A stretch of DNA of 31,083 bases from IMG/VR virus record IMGVR_UViG_3300050015_000418, positions 1-31,083 of that record. One strand, given 5' to 3'. The notes beneath the pieces are model-generated. The model saw only the letters and a list, made by a program, of their open reading frames with translations, did no database searches and had not been told where the DNA came from. Positions 10,855 to 23,711 of the stretch are shown piece after piece (position 1 is the first letter of the stretch; every line of letters begins with the position of its first letter). The DNA is from a virus. A program made the position numbers and the translations under genes.

Positions 10855-11880
10855 TTTTTTATCTCCTCCTTTGTTTGAATTATTTTTTTGTAATATATCC
10901 CTAATCAACGATGTATTTAGTTCAACATTAGCCTCATCGTTGGAAGGTGTCCATGTCATTTCTACTTCTGTGACATCACCAATAGTAACATCATTATTCG
11001 TAATGTTATAAGTAGTTTTATAATATTCTGTTGGGGTATCCCAACTACAAAAAATTACTGTCCCACTAACAGGATAAAATCTATAAATACAATAACAGTA
11101 ATATTCATTAGGTTCTTTCATAGCCATTATATTATTAAAAGCTCTGGAAACAATGGTTGCAATATCGTCATAAGATAATTCATTTATTTCAAATGATTTA
11201 GATTTTATAAGTATTTTATCTTTTTTCAAATCTTTATTCACCTCATTTACTTCTGAGTTAATTCCATCAATTATTATTTTATTTTCTTTAAAATGATTCA
11301 ATTCAATCATCAGGGCACTATCATCAGACGGTTGCTGTCCTATAAGAATTGCATGACCTGAATAATCATAAGTCTCAGGTATACGACCTTGAGGTTTATA
11401 ACCAGTAGCATAAACAATTTGACTATTCCCACTAGATTTACAAATCTCTATCGAACTTTCTACTGAACGATTATTTTCATATTCATCTCTTAAATATTCT
11501 ACAAGATGTGGAAATCTTTGCTCATAAATATATGCTTCTCCAATCAATGCATTAATTTTTTTATTATTAACTTCAACTTCATCTATATAAGCATTTTCAA
11601 AAGAACCAACAACTAAACTATCTTTAAAAGTAATAATGCCATCCACTACATTAATTTCACCGTGTCCTCCAAAAGGAATTGTTTTTTCGTCATCTAAAAA
11701 TTGTGTAACTAATGGCATTCCTTTTACGGTATGAGCATTTTGTTCAACATATGGTTGTTCCCAACTTATACCATTTTTATTAAATTCAGTATCATTGTCA
11801 AAAATTTCATGAAGTATAAATTTTACACTAGCACGACCCGCCAATGAATCCCTTTTAGATATTTCTATTATACGACCCAT
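10381..11880 (-). CDS. Prohead protease fused to scaffold
   Basis: A protein of 499 residues. Residues 1-~190 look like a capsid maturation protease. His-containing PFGGHGEIN (~70) and a Ser-rich NRSVESSIEI near 138-147, followed by strands ending in SGHAILIG, would hold the catalytic His and Ser. Residues ~190-340 are a linker domain. Residues ~345-430 form a heptad-like Glu/Leu/Lys coiled coil typical of scaffolding proteins. The ATG has GGAGGTGA upstream, inside the end of the neighbouring homing endonuclease gene (13-nt overlap). A second strong ribosome-binding site inside the gene should yield a free scaffold as well. In the lambda C/Nu3 arrangement such a protein processes and shapes the prohead. 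Confidence 0.65.
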   Translation of the reverse strand: MGRIIEISKRDSLAGRASVKFILHEIFDNDTEFNKNGISWEQPYVEQNAHTVKGMPLVTQFLDDEKTIPFGGHGEINVVDGIITFKDSLVVGSFENAYIDEVEVNNKKINALIGEAYIYEQRFPHLVEYLRDEYENNRSVESSIEICKSSGNSQIVYATGYKPQGRIPETYDYSGHAILIGQQPSDDSALMIELNHFKENKIIIDGINSEVNEVNKDLKKDKILIKSKSFEINELSYDDIATIVSRAFNNIMAMKEPNEYYCYCIYRFYPVSGTVIFCSWDTPTEYYKTTYNITNNDVTIGDVTEVEMTWTPSNDEANVELNTSLIRDILQKNNSNKGGDKKVDETKIAEINAKLDDLTTKLTDSDSKIAELNSAIVEANKTIEVKTTELNSATEELNMLRVFKEEKDLEIKKAEVNTYFETEVKKNGFTETELNSLKTDYVDKMDLDGLKIKEAEFCVKKVKELNSIEKTIETNTDNNALFMSIQNTEKSDEDYSDLF

Positions 11881-13061
11881 TTATTTTTATCACCTCCTTC
11901 AAACGATTTATCATCAATATATTTCCAATGTAAATAAGTTCCATCTACCAAATGTCCCATTATTTTTGATTTAGAAAGAGTGGTGTGTCCTTTTATATTA
12001 TATTTTCTTTTGGCTTCTGAGATTGAATCAAATTCTTCACCTGTTTCTAAACATTTTATACGAATACCAGAATTAATTTTGTTAAATAACCATATATCAT
12101 ATTTATGTTTTTGAGGATTGTAATCACATAACTCAAGAACTACACCTTCTCTTAACCATCTACAACATGTAGTTTCTGATATCTTATAGACCGAATATAT
12201 TTTTGAGAAATTATGATATTGATTCCAACAATTAATCACTTGAATTTTCTGTGAAAACATTGTATTCTTAAAAATTTGTGTCCAATTTATATTTGATAAG
12301 TCAAACAATATTGCTAAATCACTTTTAATAATATTATCTTGAATATAATTAAAGTTACTTTTATTACATTCAATCCTTATTACTTTATGATTGTTTTCAT
12401 TAGCTAATTTATCTTTTTCAGCATCGATATATTGACTCTCTTCTTTTGTTTGACCACTTAAAATATTATTATTAGTATGAAAACCTCCATCCATTTCAAC
12501 TATATAATTATCATTATCAATACTAAAAGAAAAATCATATGTACCTGTATATCTTTTATTTTTATAATAATAAAAACACCATTCAAATTTAATTTCTCTA
12601 TTAAAAATAATATTTAATTCATTTAATAAATTGAACATGATTTTATTTGGTAATGAGATTCCATCTGAACATTTTGGACACGTTAATCCACATGTAATAA
12701 TATATTTTATTTCTTTATTCTCAATAATTGTTTTACAATTTGGACATATCCAATCTACTTTTTTATGACTTCCATATGTATATAATTTACCATCTTCGTT
12801 ATTTTTAAGTAAAGCCACATAATGTGGATGAGTTGTATTTAAATCATTATAACCTACTAATACTTTTTGCCCAGAACATACTGGGCATCCAGATTTAATT
12901 GATAATAACGTATTAGGTTTTGGATACCATATATGATTGCAAATTTTACAGCAACACTCTACATTTTCATTTGATTTTTTATAAATTCCTTTAATAACAA
13001 TATCAGAATTTATTAATGCCATTTCTTGTACAAATTCTTCATGTGTTTTCTGTTTACTCAT
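11868..13061 (-). CDS. Vsr-like (EDxHD) homing endonuclease with zinc ribbons and NUMOD1
   Basis: A free-standing endonuclease of 397 residues. The N-terminal part has zinc-ribbon Cys pairs (CCCKIC at 37-41, CPVC at 59-62, CPNC at 106-109, CPKC at 128-131). The nuclease core shows Asp176 (TYDFSF), EMDGGFH (Glu189, Asp191, His195) and a DAEKDKLA helix at 213-220. This resembles the PD-(D/E)xK-derived EDxHD family of I-Bth0305I. A helix-turn-helix-like VYKISETTCCRWLREG (291-306) and a NUMOD1-like domain (331-380) follow, as expected for DNA target reading. It lies between portal and protease genes, overlaps the protease start, and carries that gene's ribosome-binding site in its 3' end. Such genes spread selfishly by cutting alleles that lack them. 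Confidence 0.85.
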   Translation of the reverse strand: MSKQKTHEEFVQEMALINSDIVIKGIYKKSNENVECCCKICNHIWYPKPNTLLSIKSGCPVCSGQKVLVGYNDLNTTHPHYVALLKNNEDGKLYTYGSHKKVDWICPNCKTIIENKEIKYIITCGLTCPKCSDGISLPNKIMFNLLNELNIIFNREIKFEWCFYYYKNKRYTGTYDFSFSIDNDNYIVEMDGGFHTNNNILSGQTKEESQYIDAEKDKLANENNHKVIRIECNKSNFNYIQDNIIKSDLAILFDLSNINWTQIFKNTMFSQKIQVINCWNQYHNFSKIYSVYKISETTCCRWLREGVVLELCDYNPQKHKYDIWLFNKINSGIRIKCLETGEEFDSISEAKRKYNIKGHTTLSKSKIMGHLVDGTYLHWKYIDDKSFEGGDKNKWVV

Positions 13062-13101
13062 TATTTATCATTCCTTTCTATGATCCCTTTCTAAAATTAA
13101 T

Positions 13102-13135
13102 CAATAAAAGAAGAGGTGCGAAAGGAACACCTCTT
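13102..13135 (-). terminator. Terminator downstream of the portal gene
   Basis: An 8-bp stem AAGAGGTG/CACCTCTT (13111-13118 and 13128-13135) with a 9-nt loop is followed in minus sense by CTTTTATTGATT. It would limit read-through from portal into the homing endonuclease. Confidence 0.7.
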
Positions 13136-13186
13136 TTCGGTTAAGTTAATTACTCTCAACCTATCTTTTTAAAACTATATTATTAA

Positions 13187-17588: not shown

Positions 17589-18760
17589 TTATAAATCACC
17601 TTATCTATTATTTTATCATTTAAATAATTATCTAAAATATCTTCAATATTTTTAAAATCCCAATACGGTATTCTTAATAATGAGATATTATTATTTTTAC
17701 AATATTTATTTTTAATTTCATCATGGTACTGTATAATTTTAAAATTTTCTAATGCTCTTTCGTTTGAAATACCGCCAAAATTTACGGGTCTAAAATGTTG
17801 TTGACCATCTGCTTCTATTAAATAAATATTTTCTTTATAAAATATTGCCATATCAAAAGGTAACGGATGTTTATCTTTACATTTATTTGTTCTATATTCG
17901 GGTAAATAAATTAAATTATTAATTATGCAAAAATTAATTAATTTATTATTAGCATTAGAATCGGAACATTTAGGGCAATTCTTACCGTTACTTCTATTAC
18001 ATATTATTGCAGGCCATTCATGTCCTCTTTCACATTGCCACCATATATCTTTATTGCAACCACAAGTAACATCATAGGGTGTTAATTCTCCATTTTTAAC
18101 AGAATGCCATTCTGAAATTAATTCTGGATTTTTAGTTGCTAAACAATTTGATAAACACACTTGATGACCAGAACAAAAGGAACAACCTTTCCCGCTTTGA
18201 ATATTATTCCAACTTGCTTCAAATATTTCTCCGCAATTATCTTTTAAACATTTCCATTTAAGATTCTTACTATTTCTTTCCCATTGCTCACTCATTAATT
18301 TAAAAGGTTTATTATTTAATTTACACCATAATTTAATATTTTGAAGCGTATATGGATTTGTTTTATGAAATTTACTTGAACTTTTATATCTAATTAAATT
18401 ATTTAATGATGGAGTGTAATAATATCCTTCTTTATCTTTAACGGTTATTCTGCTACGAATATCTTGATATTCATTATTTAATAATTCATAGCCTAAATCA
18501 TCAATATATTTTTTCACTTCATCATAAGAAAATTTTCTATTTATATTAACTAATATTTTAGAACAATCATTACATTGTTTTTTATTTTTACCCTTAAATC
18601 TCATAAAAGAAACTTCAAATTCATTCCCGCATTTACATTTAATTAATAAATTTTCTTTCGTAGTTTTATATTTTTCCCTAGTAGTTAATAATTTACATCC
18701 ACTATTAGATTCAATTTCTATAAAACTTTTTACTTCCTCATAAATTAATTTTTTTGTCAT
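17585..18760 (-). CDS. Vsr-like (EDxHD) homing endonuclease with DUF4379-type zinc ribbons
   Basis: A protein of 391 residues with ATG 8 nt after GGGAGG. Cys-rich ribbons occur at 42-44/63-66, 171-176/193-196 and 233-265. The last, with NPELISEWHSVKNGELTPYDV and GHEWPA, matches the DUF4379 zinc-ribbon pattern. The C-terminal nuclease has Asp303 (PFDMAIF), EADGQQH (Glu316, Asp318, His322) and YHDEIKNKYC (His346, Asp347), the EDxHD set of I-Bth0305I-like homing enzymes. It sits just before the terminase genes and ends inside the small-terminase start. Its leader holds a three-way-junction RNA and two tandem Shine-Dalgarno sequences. No intron is evident, so it is a free-standing mobile gene. 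Confidence 0.85.
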   Translation of the reverse strand: MTKKLIYEEVKSFIEIESNSGCKLLTTREKYKTTKENLLIKCKCGNEFEVSFMRFKGKNKKQCNDCSKILVNINRKFSYDEVKKYIDDLGYELLNNEYQDIRSRITVKDKEGYYYTPSLNNLIRYKSSSKFHKTNPYTLQNIKLWCKLNNKPFKLMSEQWERNSKNLKWKCLKDNCGEIFEASWNNIQSGKGCSFCSGHQVCLSNCLATKNPELISEWHSVKNGELTPYDVTCGCNKDIWWQCERGHEWPAIICNRSNGKNCPKCSDSNANNKLINFCIINNLIYLPEYRTNKCKDKHPLPFDMAIFYKENIYLIEADGQQHFRPVNFGGISNERALENFKIIQYHDEIKNKYCKNNNISLLRIPYWDFKNIEDILDNYLNDKIIDKVIYN

Positions 18761-18784
18761 CTAACATACCTCCCAAATTTATAA

Positions 18785-18877
18785 TCCTCCCATAAAAAAT
18801 ACCAATAAAATAAGGGACAAAGAGCGATGAGAGGATCGCTCAAAAGAATAGGAAGCAACGCCTATTCTTGTCCCTTA
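18785..18877 (-). ncRNA. Three-way-junction RNA with anti-Shine-Dalgarno loop (candidate attenuator)
   Basis: Minus-strand RNA. The outer stem is a perfect 10 bp, TAAGGGACAA/TTGTCCCTTA (18877-18868 with 18820-18811). Two perfect inner hairpins follow: GAATAGG/CCTATTC with loop CGTTGCTT, and GAGCGA/TCGCTC with loop TCCTCTCA. Only U and UUUU joints separate them. The 3' side is TTTTATTGG and a T6 run, so it can act as a terminator. Loop TCCTCTCA can pair over all eight bases (one G-U) with TGGGAGGA at 18792-18785, the first of two Shine-Dalgarno sequences of the downstream endonuclease gene. The structure is seen directly; regulation is inference. Confidence 0.7.
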
Positions 18878-18918
18878 AAACTTATTTCTAAATCAAAATA
18901 AATTATATCTTTTAACAC

Positions 18919-19404
18919 CTATTCGTCAAAATACTCTTGTTCACTTACCTCAAAAACTAGATCATCCACATGATAAAGCATCTGATTCATCGACTCGATA
19001 CTCTGTCTCAGTGCAACCTCTATCCCCATGCGAATTCCGTTATCCAATGCTTCTTGTTCAATTTGATCTAATATATCATTTAGAAACGAGAATGCTTCTT
19101 CATCAGAAACTTCTTTGATATCTGAGATTACGGTTTTAATAAATTGACAACGATCACAACACCCATCTTCACATTCATCATTTTCTCTTGTTTTAAAATC
19201 TACAACATTATCTTTAATATCTTCTTTCTTCTTATCTTCAAGTCTTTTCTTTTTCTTATCTTCTATTGCTTTTTCATTTTTGCTCTTCTCTAATCTATCA
19301 GAAGATAATTTATCATAGACTTCTTCTGACACGGGTTTCTTATCTATTATATAGACTCTTTTTAATTCACCATCAACAATTTCTTCATTAATCTCAAATT
19401 TCAA
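18919..19404 (-). CDS. Acidic protein with Cys cluster, unknown function
   Basis: About 161 residues. I place the start at TTG 19404, 8 nt after AGAGG, rather than the GTG at 19413 that lies in the ribosome-binding site. A Lys/Glu/Asp-rich helix (~40-65) is followed by a Cys cluster DECEDGCCDRCQF that could bind zinc. An acidic helical C-terminus (LNDILDQIEQEALDNGIRMGIEVALRQSIESMNQML) follows. It is 11 nt downstream of another small Cys-containing protein, so the two may work together. I do not recognise the family. Confidence 0.6.
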   Translation of the reverse strand: MKFEINEEIVDGELKRVYIIDKKPVSEEVYDKLSSDRLEKSKNEKAIEDKKKKRLEDKKKEDIKDNVVDFKTRENDECEDGCCDRCQFIKTVISDIKEVSDEEAFSFLNDILDQIEQEALDNGIRMGIEVALRQSIESMNQMLYHVDDLVFEVSEQEYFDE

Positions 19405-19415
19405 AATTTGCACCT

Positions 19416-19601: not shown

Positions 19602-19630
19602 AAAGAGGGGAGGTAATTATCCTCCAAAGT
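19602..19630 (-). terminator. Weak hairpin after metallophosphoesterase gene
   Basis: GGAGG/CCTCC with a 7-nt loop (19609-19613 and 19621-19625), flanked by AAAGA/TCTTT that can extend the stem with an internal loop. In minus sense it is followed by TTTATTATA rather than a clean T-run. Confidence 0.4.
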
Positions 19631-19639
19631 CTTTTTATT

Positions 19640-20803
19640 TTATATATCTAATCTAATCGAATAACTTGCTTCTCTACCTTCTTCTTCATTAAAAACTATA
19701 AACATTTGTGCTGGCTTAGAAGTTAATCTCTTTCCAAAAGAATAAGAATCTACGCCTATCAAACTTGAATTAACCACTAATTCACAACTATGTACTTCAT
19801 CAGATTGCAAATGATGAAAATGACTTAAAAATATATATTCTGGAAACATTTTAAACATTAAAGAAAGATTTTGAGTAGCATTAGTTATTCTGTCTTTATC
19901 TCCATGAGAACCAAAACATAAATGTCCACAAATATTAAGTAAAGCAACGCCATCATCTAATATGTTATCTATAACTTCAATATTTAATATATCTGATACT
20001 CTTGATTTTACATACCAAGGAATTATCCGTGATAAATTTTCTTTATCAATAGATTCATCTTTTTTAGAAGTAACTCTGCTATGATTATCAATTACTGAAT
20101 AAAATTTAATATATTCAAATTCGTCAGAGAATTTCATAAGCATTTCAGATAATATTTCACTAACATACATTAATTGAGTTATATTATCTTCGTTACTTGA
20201 AACTCTTATTGATACATGAATTAAACCCGCAATTAAATCACTTAAATTCAAAACATGGAGTGTTTTTATATTATGAAATTTTCCATGCTCTATTGTTTTA
20301 ACCACTAATCTATTTATTCTTCTTTTAAATTCTTCTTTATTAAAAGTATTTAAATAATTATTAATTTCTAAATTTGAGTGCCAATCTGAAACAATTAAAA
20401 CTCCTTCTTTATCTGAGTTAATATGATTAAGATTTAACCATTTAAAAGGTTTATCTTTTTTAATATCTTCTGCAACCTCTTGAATTACTTCTTGAAGATA
20501 TTCATATCTTGCTAAATCGGTTACTATTTTTCTAAACTCTCTTTTTTGATCTCTAACCTTAATTTTTTCTTTATCTAAATCTATTATTTTTAGATCTAAT
20601 AAATTCAATTTACTTTCTAATCCACTACTCACAACTTCTTCTCTTTTTGGTAATTTACCAATCTTTTTTAGGTGTTTTCTTACTATATCTCTTGCTTTCT
20701 CGCCAGAAATACCAAATTGCATTCCAATAGAATCCCATGAATCTTTAATGTCACCATTTCTCTTTTTAATACCTATCTCGATTAAAGATTGATACTTCTC
20801 CAA
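19640..20803 (-). CDS. Calcineurin-like metallophosphoesterase with N-terminal helix-turn-helix
   Basis: A protein of 387 residues starting at TTG (20803). The metal-binding motifs are in order: VSDWH (Asp140, His142), NLSDL (Asp189), IDNHSR (Asn240, His241), FGSHGDKD (His300) and LSHFHH (His328, His330). This is the full dinuclear centre of the superfamily. Residues ~20-46 (DSWDSIGMQFGISGEKARDIV) look like a helix-turn-helix, and a coiled coil spans ~65-100. Known members cleave phosphodiester bonds in nucleic acids or nucleotides; the DNA-binding front end makes a nucleic-acid substrate likely (inference). It is the first gene after the tRNA in reading direction. Confidence 0.8.
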   Translation of the reverse strand: MEKYQSLIEIGIKKRNGDIKDSWDSIGMQFGISGEKARDIVRKHLKKIGKLPKREEVVSSGLESKLNLLDLKIIDLDKEKIKVRDQKREFRKIVTDLARYEYLQEVIQEVAEDIKKDKPFKWLNLNHINSDKEGVLIVSDWHSNLEINNYLNTFNKEEFKRRINRLVVKTIEHGKFHNIKTLHVLNLSDLIAGLIHVSIRVSSNEDNITQLMYVSEILSEMLMKFSDEFEYIKFYSVIDNHSRVTSKKDESIDKENLSRIIPWYVKSRVSDILNIEVIDNILDDGVALLNICGHLCFGSHGDKDRITNATQNLSLMFKMFPEYIFLSHFHHLQSDEVHSCELVVNSSLIGVDSYSFGKRLTSKPAQMFIVFNEEEGREASYSIRLDI

Positions 20804-22664: not shown

Positions 22665-22880
22665 TTACGCTGGACTAATAAATTTGCTTTCAATCTTCTC
22701 TGTGTTGCCGTCCATAAATATCAAATGGTTATCTCGTTCAATCACAAAGATATTATCCATGTCATCGCCAGATTCACTTGTTTGATATTGTTTAACTTCG
22801 TCATTTATCTTGTAATAAATCCTCTTATAAAGAAAGATATTGTCATTATCGACATAGCAAATTGCTATCTTCTCATTCAT
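22665..22880 (-). CDS. Small protein overlapping the GIY-YIG gene, unknown function
   Basis: A protein of 71 residues starting at ATG (22880) after AAGGAG, overlapping the end of the GIY-YIG gene by 8 nt. It looks like a small beta fold (IAICYVDNDNIFLYKRIYYKI...NIFVIERDNHLIFMDGN) and has no recognised family. Overlap with the endonuclease and a 24-nt gap to PhoH place it in the same transcript. Confidence 0.55.
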   Translation of the reverse strand: MNEKIAICYVDNDNIFLYKRIYYKINDEVKQYQTSESGDDMDNIFVIERDNHLIFMDGNTEKIESKFISPA

Positions 22881-23628
22881 CGCTTAACTCCTTATCTAAA
22901 TCTTCTTCTTTATCTAAATCCTTAATCACCATTTTGATCGCTTTATTATTAATAAAATCTTTAAAATCTTCTTGATATTCATATGTTTTTCTAAATTCAT
23001 TGAATTGTTCTTCTTCAAGAAGAGGAGAAAAACTAAAAGGCGTATTATGTTCAAAAAACTTTTTATTATTTCTATATGTAGCACCATTTAATGTATTTAA
23101 CGCTCTTGCAATAATAGTTGCTTTTTCTTTACACTCTTCTTCTGTCCAATTAGGGTTTTCATATTTATAAACTTCTGCAATATCGTTTTTTGACCACCAT
23201 AAGTTATTTTTATGTTTATTGGGTGCATTTCCTTTATTCTTGTTTAAATTATTAACATTAGTATTCTTTTTTCTTTTATTAACATTTTTTTTAACAATAT
23301 CTTTATTGATATTAAAATTATCTGACCCACCAGTAGTTAAATTATATCCATTTTCTCCGAATGAATTATAATATTTAATCCATTTAACCTCTAAAAAATC
23401 CAATTCATCTTTATTATATGCAAAATCAATTATATCCCAGTCAAAATTACTTTCTCCGTGTTTATTTAGTGAATTATGAAAATAGGTATAATCATATCTG
23501 GCTGCATTAATATGTGCCAAGGTTCTTGTTTCTAAGTTTCTTGTAGTTTGCCCTATATAAATTTTATCATTTATAGTATTAATACATTTATATATAATAC
23601 CATAAACTTCATTACCATCATAAATTAT
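22873..23628 (-). CDS. GIY-YIG homing endonuclease, non-canonical start
   Basis: About 251 residues. The full N-terminal GIY-YIG domain is readable: VYGIIYKCIN, then KIYIGQTTRNLETR with the catalytic Arg of the TR motif, LNKHGESNFDWDII, and FLEVKWIKYYNSF with the catalytic Glu and a GENGYNLTTGG turn. It continues into a Lys/Asn-rich linker and a C-terminal DNA-binding-type region. A TTG at 23520 lies inside the motif, so it cannot be the true start. Upstream, the frame reaches TAA at 23634-23632 with no ATG, GTG or TTG; ATC, ATA and ATT (23631, 23628, 23625) follow AGGAGG by 5, 8 and 11 nt. I use ATA at 23628. Confidence 0.8.
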   Translation of the reverse strand: MIYDGNEVYGIIYKCINTINDKIYIGQTTRNLETRTLAHINAARYDYTYFHNSLNKHGESNFDWDIIDFAYNKDELDFLEVKWIKYYNSFGENGYNLTTGGSDNFNINKDIVKKNVNKRKKNTNVNNLNKNKGNAPNKHKNNLWWSKNDIAEVYKYENPNWTEEECKEKATIIARALNTLNGATYRNNKKFFEHNTPFSFSPLLEEEQFNEFRKTYEYQEDFKDFINNKAIKMVIKDLDKEEDLDKELSDE

Positions 23629-23636
23629 GATTTATT

Positions 23637-23661
23637 CCTCCTAAAATATAAAGTACCTCCT
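23637..23661 (-). promoter_or_regulatory. Two tandem Shine-Dalgarno sequences before the GIY-YIG gene
   Basis: AGGAGG occurs at 23661-23656 and again at 23642-23637. After the first site, ATT at 23647 would open a nine-codon frame (second codon TTA, then GGA GGA from the second site) ending TGA inside the endonuclease start region. Translation of one could affect the other. Confidence 0.4.
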
Positions 23662-23686
23662 ATAAGATTACGTATTAATATTACTT

Positions 23687-23711
23687 AAAAAAGTGGTACT
23701 GAATTATACCA
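23687..23711 (-). terminator. Short hairpin at the end of the sigma-like gene
   Basis: TGGTA/TACCA with an 8-nt loop spans the stop codon and is followed in minus sense by C and TTTTTT. The 5-bp stem is weak. Confidence 0.35.

Follow-up and report, generated by a model that had tools for sequence, protein, structure and literature searches.

In satellite-phage immunity, the CI RNA of phage P4 has one short sequence whose complement occurs at two sites of a single transcript. The int-alpA RNA reportedly goes back to Weinberg et al. 2017. It is listed in Rfam as a candidate motif (RF02996), and the literature that we searched contained no description of its function or of that of the leader family reported here. 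The C4 antisense RNA of phages P1 and P7 (RF01695) has a three-stem structure, with loops that pair at and upstream of a ribosome-binding site, and is reported to arise by processing of a longer transcript (PMC5320573). Control of homing endonucleases by leader structure is known for T4 I-TevI, segB and Aeh1 mobE, in which an RNA structure blocks the ribosome-binding site (PMC2988022). The initial annotation of our locus rightly pointed to this control in T4, but the layout is different: in those genes the Shine-Dalgarno (SD) sequence lies inside a hairpin, whereas here a separate junction reaches the SD by means of a loop. Two targets and a fold conserved across phages are features of the leader family, in contrast to T4-type SD hairpins.

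The window, meaning the whole 31,083-nt stretch of viral DNA analysed, contains a 67-nt RNA leader (18877-18811, minus strand) that forms a tight three-way junction before a homing endonuclease gene (HEG; 18760-17585, minus strand). On the other side of the leader is gene 18919-19413 (P0002), for which no relatives were found in IMG/VR. The HEG encodes a protein of 391 aa with a DUF4379 zinc finger, an assignment to PHROG 559 and an EDxHD-like C-terminus, and among PHROG families the protein matches homing/HNH endonucleases. A PDB search with the endonuclease profile gave zinc-domain matches only, and a PADLOC defence scan was empty. In the computed folds, the 10-bp outer stem is formed by UAAGGGACAA (18868-18877) and UUGUCCCUUA (18811-18820). 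Hairpin 1 (18846-18867; GAAUAGG-CGUUGCUU-CCUAUUC) has 7-8 bp, formed by GAAUAGG and CCUAUUC, and hairpin 2 (18822-18841; GAGCGAU-CCUCUC-AUCGCUC) has 7 bp, formed by GAGCGAU and AUCGCUC. The anti-target loop, assigned from the fold and from comparison of loops with targets, is UCCUCUCA (18835-18828) in hairpin 2; the true loop is of 6 nt, as the outer U and A of UCCUCUCA also close the hairpin. The initial annotation had placed these elements correctly, including the loop match, the tandem SD-like sites and the T-rich tail, without giving a strand; its stem lengths of 10, 7 and 6 bp hold for the outer stem and hairpin 2, but not for hairpin 1. The folding energy of -32.1 kcal/mol is far beyond chance when compared with dinucleotide shuffles (-12.6 +/- 2.7 kcal/mol; z -7.1, 0/200). 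This shuffle test was done on the plus-strand sequence; the minus strand was folded separately, and in that fold the leader belongs with the most stable 95-nt stretches of the whole 31 kb. The hairpin-1 region (18841-18865) recurs with 22/25 letters at 19735-19759, inside gene 19640-20803.

The loop UCCUCUCA is complementary to all eight bases of UGGGAGGA (target 1, 18792-18785, minus strand), with one G-U, and to the seven bases of UGGGAGG (target 2, 18775-18769, minus strand), as had been annotated. Pairing with target 1 is worth -10.8 kcal/mol. The SD falls within target 2, 8 nt upstream of the AUG, and pairing of this target with the loop rivals that with the 16S rRNA in strength (-9.8 kcal/mol versus -11.1 kcal/mol with the anti-SD). 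The two SD-like sites of the initial annotation are present; they are better described as two tandem targets, which is the rule in the family, with the SD at the second. A run of eight is reached by 11% of all 8-mers of the window, and eight plus seven by 2.2%. The match is weak by itself and not beyond chance, and relatives were needed because it is unremarkable within the window; on our reading of the sequences, it is the family comparison that makes it convincing. It could be argued that the leader is an ordinary terminator of the upstream gene and that the loop-SD match, as found in about 2% of window 8-mers, is incidental. A strong stem with a U-rich tail does follow the stop of gene 18919-19413. 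This terminator-like tail, UUUUAUU (18804-18810, minus strand), is short and interrupted, and a simple terminator and hairpin scan of the window did not list the leader with its stem and UUUUAUU. A sigma-70-type promoter (TTGACG, 16 nt, TATAAT; 18902-18929, minus strand) has 11/12 consensus letters, and transcription is expected to start approximately 15 nt upstream of the junction.

Relatives were collected using P0003, P0001 and the second endonuclease of the window as bait, and 45 three-way junctions were chosen among 214 distinct endonuclease leaders by fold and position alone. A first covariance model (R1), built from five leaders, found the family; a second (R2) was trained on 33 matches, none of them from the window. 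The window leader was detected by R2 (18878-18805; 31.7 bits, E 6.5e-5), while the narrower R1 gave a borderline match (20.8 bits, E 0.29). Absence of covariation in homologous leaders had been named in the initial annotation as an observation that would refute its proposal, and the leaders passed this test. In the R2 alignment, 23/23 stem pairs change on both sides and 96% of cells pair, with a covariation score of 0.636 versus 0.188 in shuffled and at most 0.156 in slid alignments; loops and SD-side targets also change together. MAFFT misaligns the 3' half of these diverse leaders, hence the use of alignments fitted to the structure by the covariance model, which favours that structure. The shared plan, found before dozens of phage HEGs, consists of an outer stem, hairpin 1, hairpin 2, a U-rich tail (on average 4.4 T within 8 nt after the stem) and two targets, with the conserved junction letters GAUAG and GANAAG. 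The window leader lacks both sets of junction letters. The initial annotation knew no example with this shape; the leader is, however, not a one-off but one member of a large family.

The same window contains a second, canonical leader (13099-13171, minus strand; R2 77.1 bits, E 2.2e-15) before its other HEG (11868-13061, minus strand; 397 aa, DUF4379, assigned also by sequence relatives). This leader has the GAUAG and GANAAG letters, a hairpin-1 palindrome UAAUUA and a loop, UUCCUUUC, with two GAAAGG-type targets, GAAAGGGA (13091-13084) and GAAAGGAA (13078-13071), both within 13071-13091 on the minus strand. A further match of the covariance model in the window (3739-3653; 24.1 bits) was set aside, as it resembles a plain terminator and its loop, UUAGAAAAA, had no SD match by eye. 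R2 matched 35 sites in 20 phage records; some of these sites were near-duplicates or loci already known, and single records carried up to five leaders with different loops (a 154-kb record had five). No exact pattern of the window's own hairpins turned up in scans of IMG/VR. In nine isolated phages that carry P0001-like endonucleases (Lactococcus, Staphylococcus, Streptococcus and others), no leader was found: there was no convincing descriptor match and no R2 match at E 0.5. R2 also found none in 290 further Clostridia genomes, with strict filters and few candidates scored per genome. Most loci were found via the endonuclease bait, and the contigs are metagenomic.

The loop and its targets vary together across the family. 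For the 45 leaders picked by fold, the hairpin-2 loop fits its own downstream sequence at -6.27 kcal/mol versus -4.54 +/- 0.27 kcal/mol when permuted (0/20000), while the hairpin-1 loops of the same leaders, used as a control, fit their own downstream sequence no better. For the 49 leaders defined by the model, the fit is -9.75 versus -6.79 permuted, and 86% have at least two targets versus 29% permuted (0/20000); the window leader's own downstream sequence ranks first of 49 for its loop. As the leaders are related and the permutation tests are uncorrected for shared ancestry, these counts are not true probabilities. Examples are CUCCAU with AUGGAG twice (L048), UCCUCAA with UUGAGGA and UUGAGG (L039), GCUCCAAU with AUUGGAG twice (L144) and ACUCGCA with UGCGAGU and GCGAGUA (L151). 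In some leaders (L047, L179 and L326) the pairing flanks the SD core instead of covering it. An IMG/VR scan on hairpin 1 and the junction letters only gave nine distinct leaders, the majority of them before homing-type endonucleases; at least one target was present in 9/9 and two in 8/9. When the descriptor that had picked the 45 leaders was applied to 709 "control" genes of the loci, strong matches were obtained for, among others, two GIY-YIG endonucleases and one PHROG homing endonuclease not caught by the bait, and the remaining matches resembled chance or GC-rich sequence. A terminator would need neither three covarying stems nor conserved junction letters, and would not account for family-wide tandem targets that co-vary with a loop. 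Because of the covariation and the loop-target permutation results, the view of the leader as a mere terminator is largely refuted, and we regard it as highly unlikely. In one leader (L326:1501-1578), 11 nt of the loop match each of two targets of 11 nt. The second target ends just before the start codon; neither is SD-like, and the downstream gene is unidentified.

The genes after the leaders encode nucleases of the EDxHD-like/treble-clef, GIY-YIG or T5orf172, and HNH types. The exceptions are two unidentified genes (L337 and L326), two with weak nuclease matches only (L317 and L330), and L004, L334 and the E. coli cases, all described below. This diversity bears on a reading in which the leader is an RNA antitoxin or protein-binding operator and the endonuclease binds its own leader, as in C. 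difficile AbiF-RCd22. A stable leader whose terminator allows read-through into a nuclease that may do harm, which is reported for AbiF (PMC12373285), would be consistent with such binding, as would the conserved junction letters. However, this RNA is found before nucleases with unrelated folds (EDxHD-like, GIY-YIG and HNH) as well as before non-nuclease genes, so that a shared protein ligand is unlikely, and protein binding would leave the loop-SD co-variation unexplained; we consider this reading very improbable. The conserved GAUAG and GANAAG could instead belong to a riboswitch that senses a ligand and uses the loop-SD pairing for its expression platform. There is, however, no conserved pocket-sized core outside the junction, and the window member keeps the pairing without the junction letters, which makes a riboswitch the least probable of the readings that we considered. 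One leader (L004:8-73) is followed immediately by a P0003 homologue, without an intervening endonuclease, while the corresponding site in the window is occupied; it is possibly a relic or a captured regulator. Another (L334:1501-1563) has no reading frame after it, has lost its targets and looks decayed.

The family overlaps the Rfam int-alpA RNA, and sequence comparison indicates that Rfam names a part of it. Three leaders (L103, L099 and L056) score above the RF02996 gathering cut-off of 35.8 bits. The second window leader scores below it (26 bits, E 0.0017), and the first gave no match to E 10 over 18700-19000. int-alpA RNA has the same outer stem, UAG, hairpin 1, GAAAAG, hairpin 2 and U-run, and, as in the family, its hairpin-2 loop has complementary sites at two places further downstream, of which the second lies near the SD. 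A compensatory change between loop and target is present in E. coli (ACCUUA-UAAGGU versus GCCUUA-UAAGGC). The window leader shares the three-way junction with loop-target pairing but lacks the junction letters, and the E. coli hairpin-1 loop is GACG. From its sequence, the window element is therefore best filed as a divergent relative and not as an int-alpA RNA. The genes after the E. coli int-alpA RNAs (L301, L302 and L304), located between the integrase and an alpA-like gene, encode proteins of about 300 aa that differ from one another and are unidentified; these proteins had no Pfam or PADLOC match and, for one, a weak PHROG match.

We consider it probable that the leader, encoded in cis, acts as an RNA brake on the selfish gene, combining attenuation with blocked translation. 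This had been the proposal of the initial annotation and it remains the best reading, supported by covariation; termination, repression and trans action are inferred, as there are no expression data. RNA polymerase would make the three-way junction first, and the junction with its U-rich tail would end part of transcription, releasing a short structured RNA. In read-through transcripts, the hairpin-2 loop would pair with target 1, target 2 or both, and pairing with target 2 would cover the SD and deny ribosomes access to the endonuclease gene. The terminated RNA could also repress in trans, as P1 C4 antisense RNA does (PMC5320573). C4 differs in that two loops serve two sites, whereas here one loop fits both, and Rfam RF01695 gave no match in any leader searched, the window leader included. 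P4 CI RNA differs from the leader in its genes and termination logic. The device probably serves many phage HEGs as a brake, one that has not been explained so far. What comparison of sequences has demonstrated is the fold, the covariation, the tandem loop-target co-variation, the association with homing endonucleases and, in some members, a promoter at the junction.

Hairpin 1 raises a different possibility. A 6-nt palindrome is present in the hairpin-1 loops of 30/43 curated leaders, versus 5.0 in shuffled loops (maximum 15 in 5000 shuffles), and in the hairpin-2 loops of 1/43. Hairpin 1 played no part in the filtering of this set, which relied on hairpin-2 targets; a few of its members are doubtful. 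Nine palindromes occur (UAAUUA, UUGCAA, UGAUCA, UCAUGA, UUAUAA, UCGCGA, CUUAAG, UAGCUA and GUCGAC), and the self-duplex is stronger than the cross-duplex (-4.1 versus -1.2 kcal/mol). Many of the loops read AG-NNNNNN-A, or purine-purine-palindrome-A, like the 6-nt palindrome with purine flanks of the HIV-1 dimer initiation site (DIS), and the GACG of int-alpA hairpin 1 is the known kissing loop of MoMuLV (PMC7357161). These self-complementary loops, new here and out of reach of the initial annotation, may point to kissing dimers; dimerization is inferred from statistics in the relatives only. The retroviral loops are an analogy, no dimer has been shown and the feature is absent from the window leader, the hairpin-1 loop of which (CGUUGCUU) is, unlike most, not self-complementary. 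In ten relatives, versus 1.1 expected, a promoter ends 0-12 nt before the junction, with no enrichment at more than 12 nt; in the window the gap is 23 nt, beyond the enriched range. It is thus conceivable, if rather less than an even prospect, that the leader mainly yields the terminated junction RNA, which dimerizes via hairpin 1 and, in trans, represses the same endonuclease mRNA whichever copy it is made from, as copy-number control or immunity like that of P1 C4 and P4 CI; two targets would suit the two loops of a dimer. Against this, the window leader has no palindrome, palindrome-free leaders also carry two targets, so that the features are not tied, and the existence of the short RNA is unproven.

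Cis repression by the loop could also be combined with such trans action. We tentatively suggest, short of expecting it, that the leaders make up a large class, as yet unnamed, of RNA regulators in phages, with a dimerizing DIS-like hairpin and a guide loop matched to two tandem sites at the start of the gene, several with different loops per phage, acting in cis and, as terminated short RNAs, in trans, and with the endonuclease dose limited by copy number. If true, this reading, with its gene-specific "address", would also give int-alpA RNA a mechanism. Self-restraint of free-standing homing endonucleases is largely untested outside T4, and a predictable device in many phages opens dozens of loop-target pairs to reporter swaps. 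Bacterial mRNA leaders that dimerize via retrovirus-like kissing loops are another possible implication. Elsewhere in the window, 22873-23704 (minus strand), judged by eye, probably encodes a GIY-YIG homing endonuclease; it is split in frame and has no family leader, and a profile scan of this region returned no Pfam family. Finally, a hairpin with a UAAUUA loop, GGAGGAUAAUUACCUCC (19609-19625, minus strand), lies before a 51-aa frame and is possibly a decayed leader.
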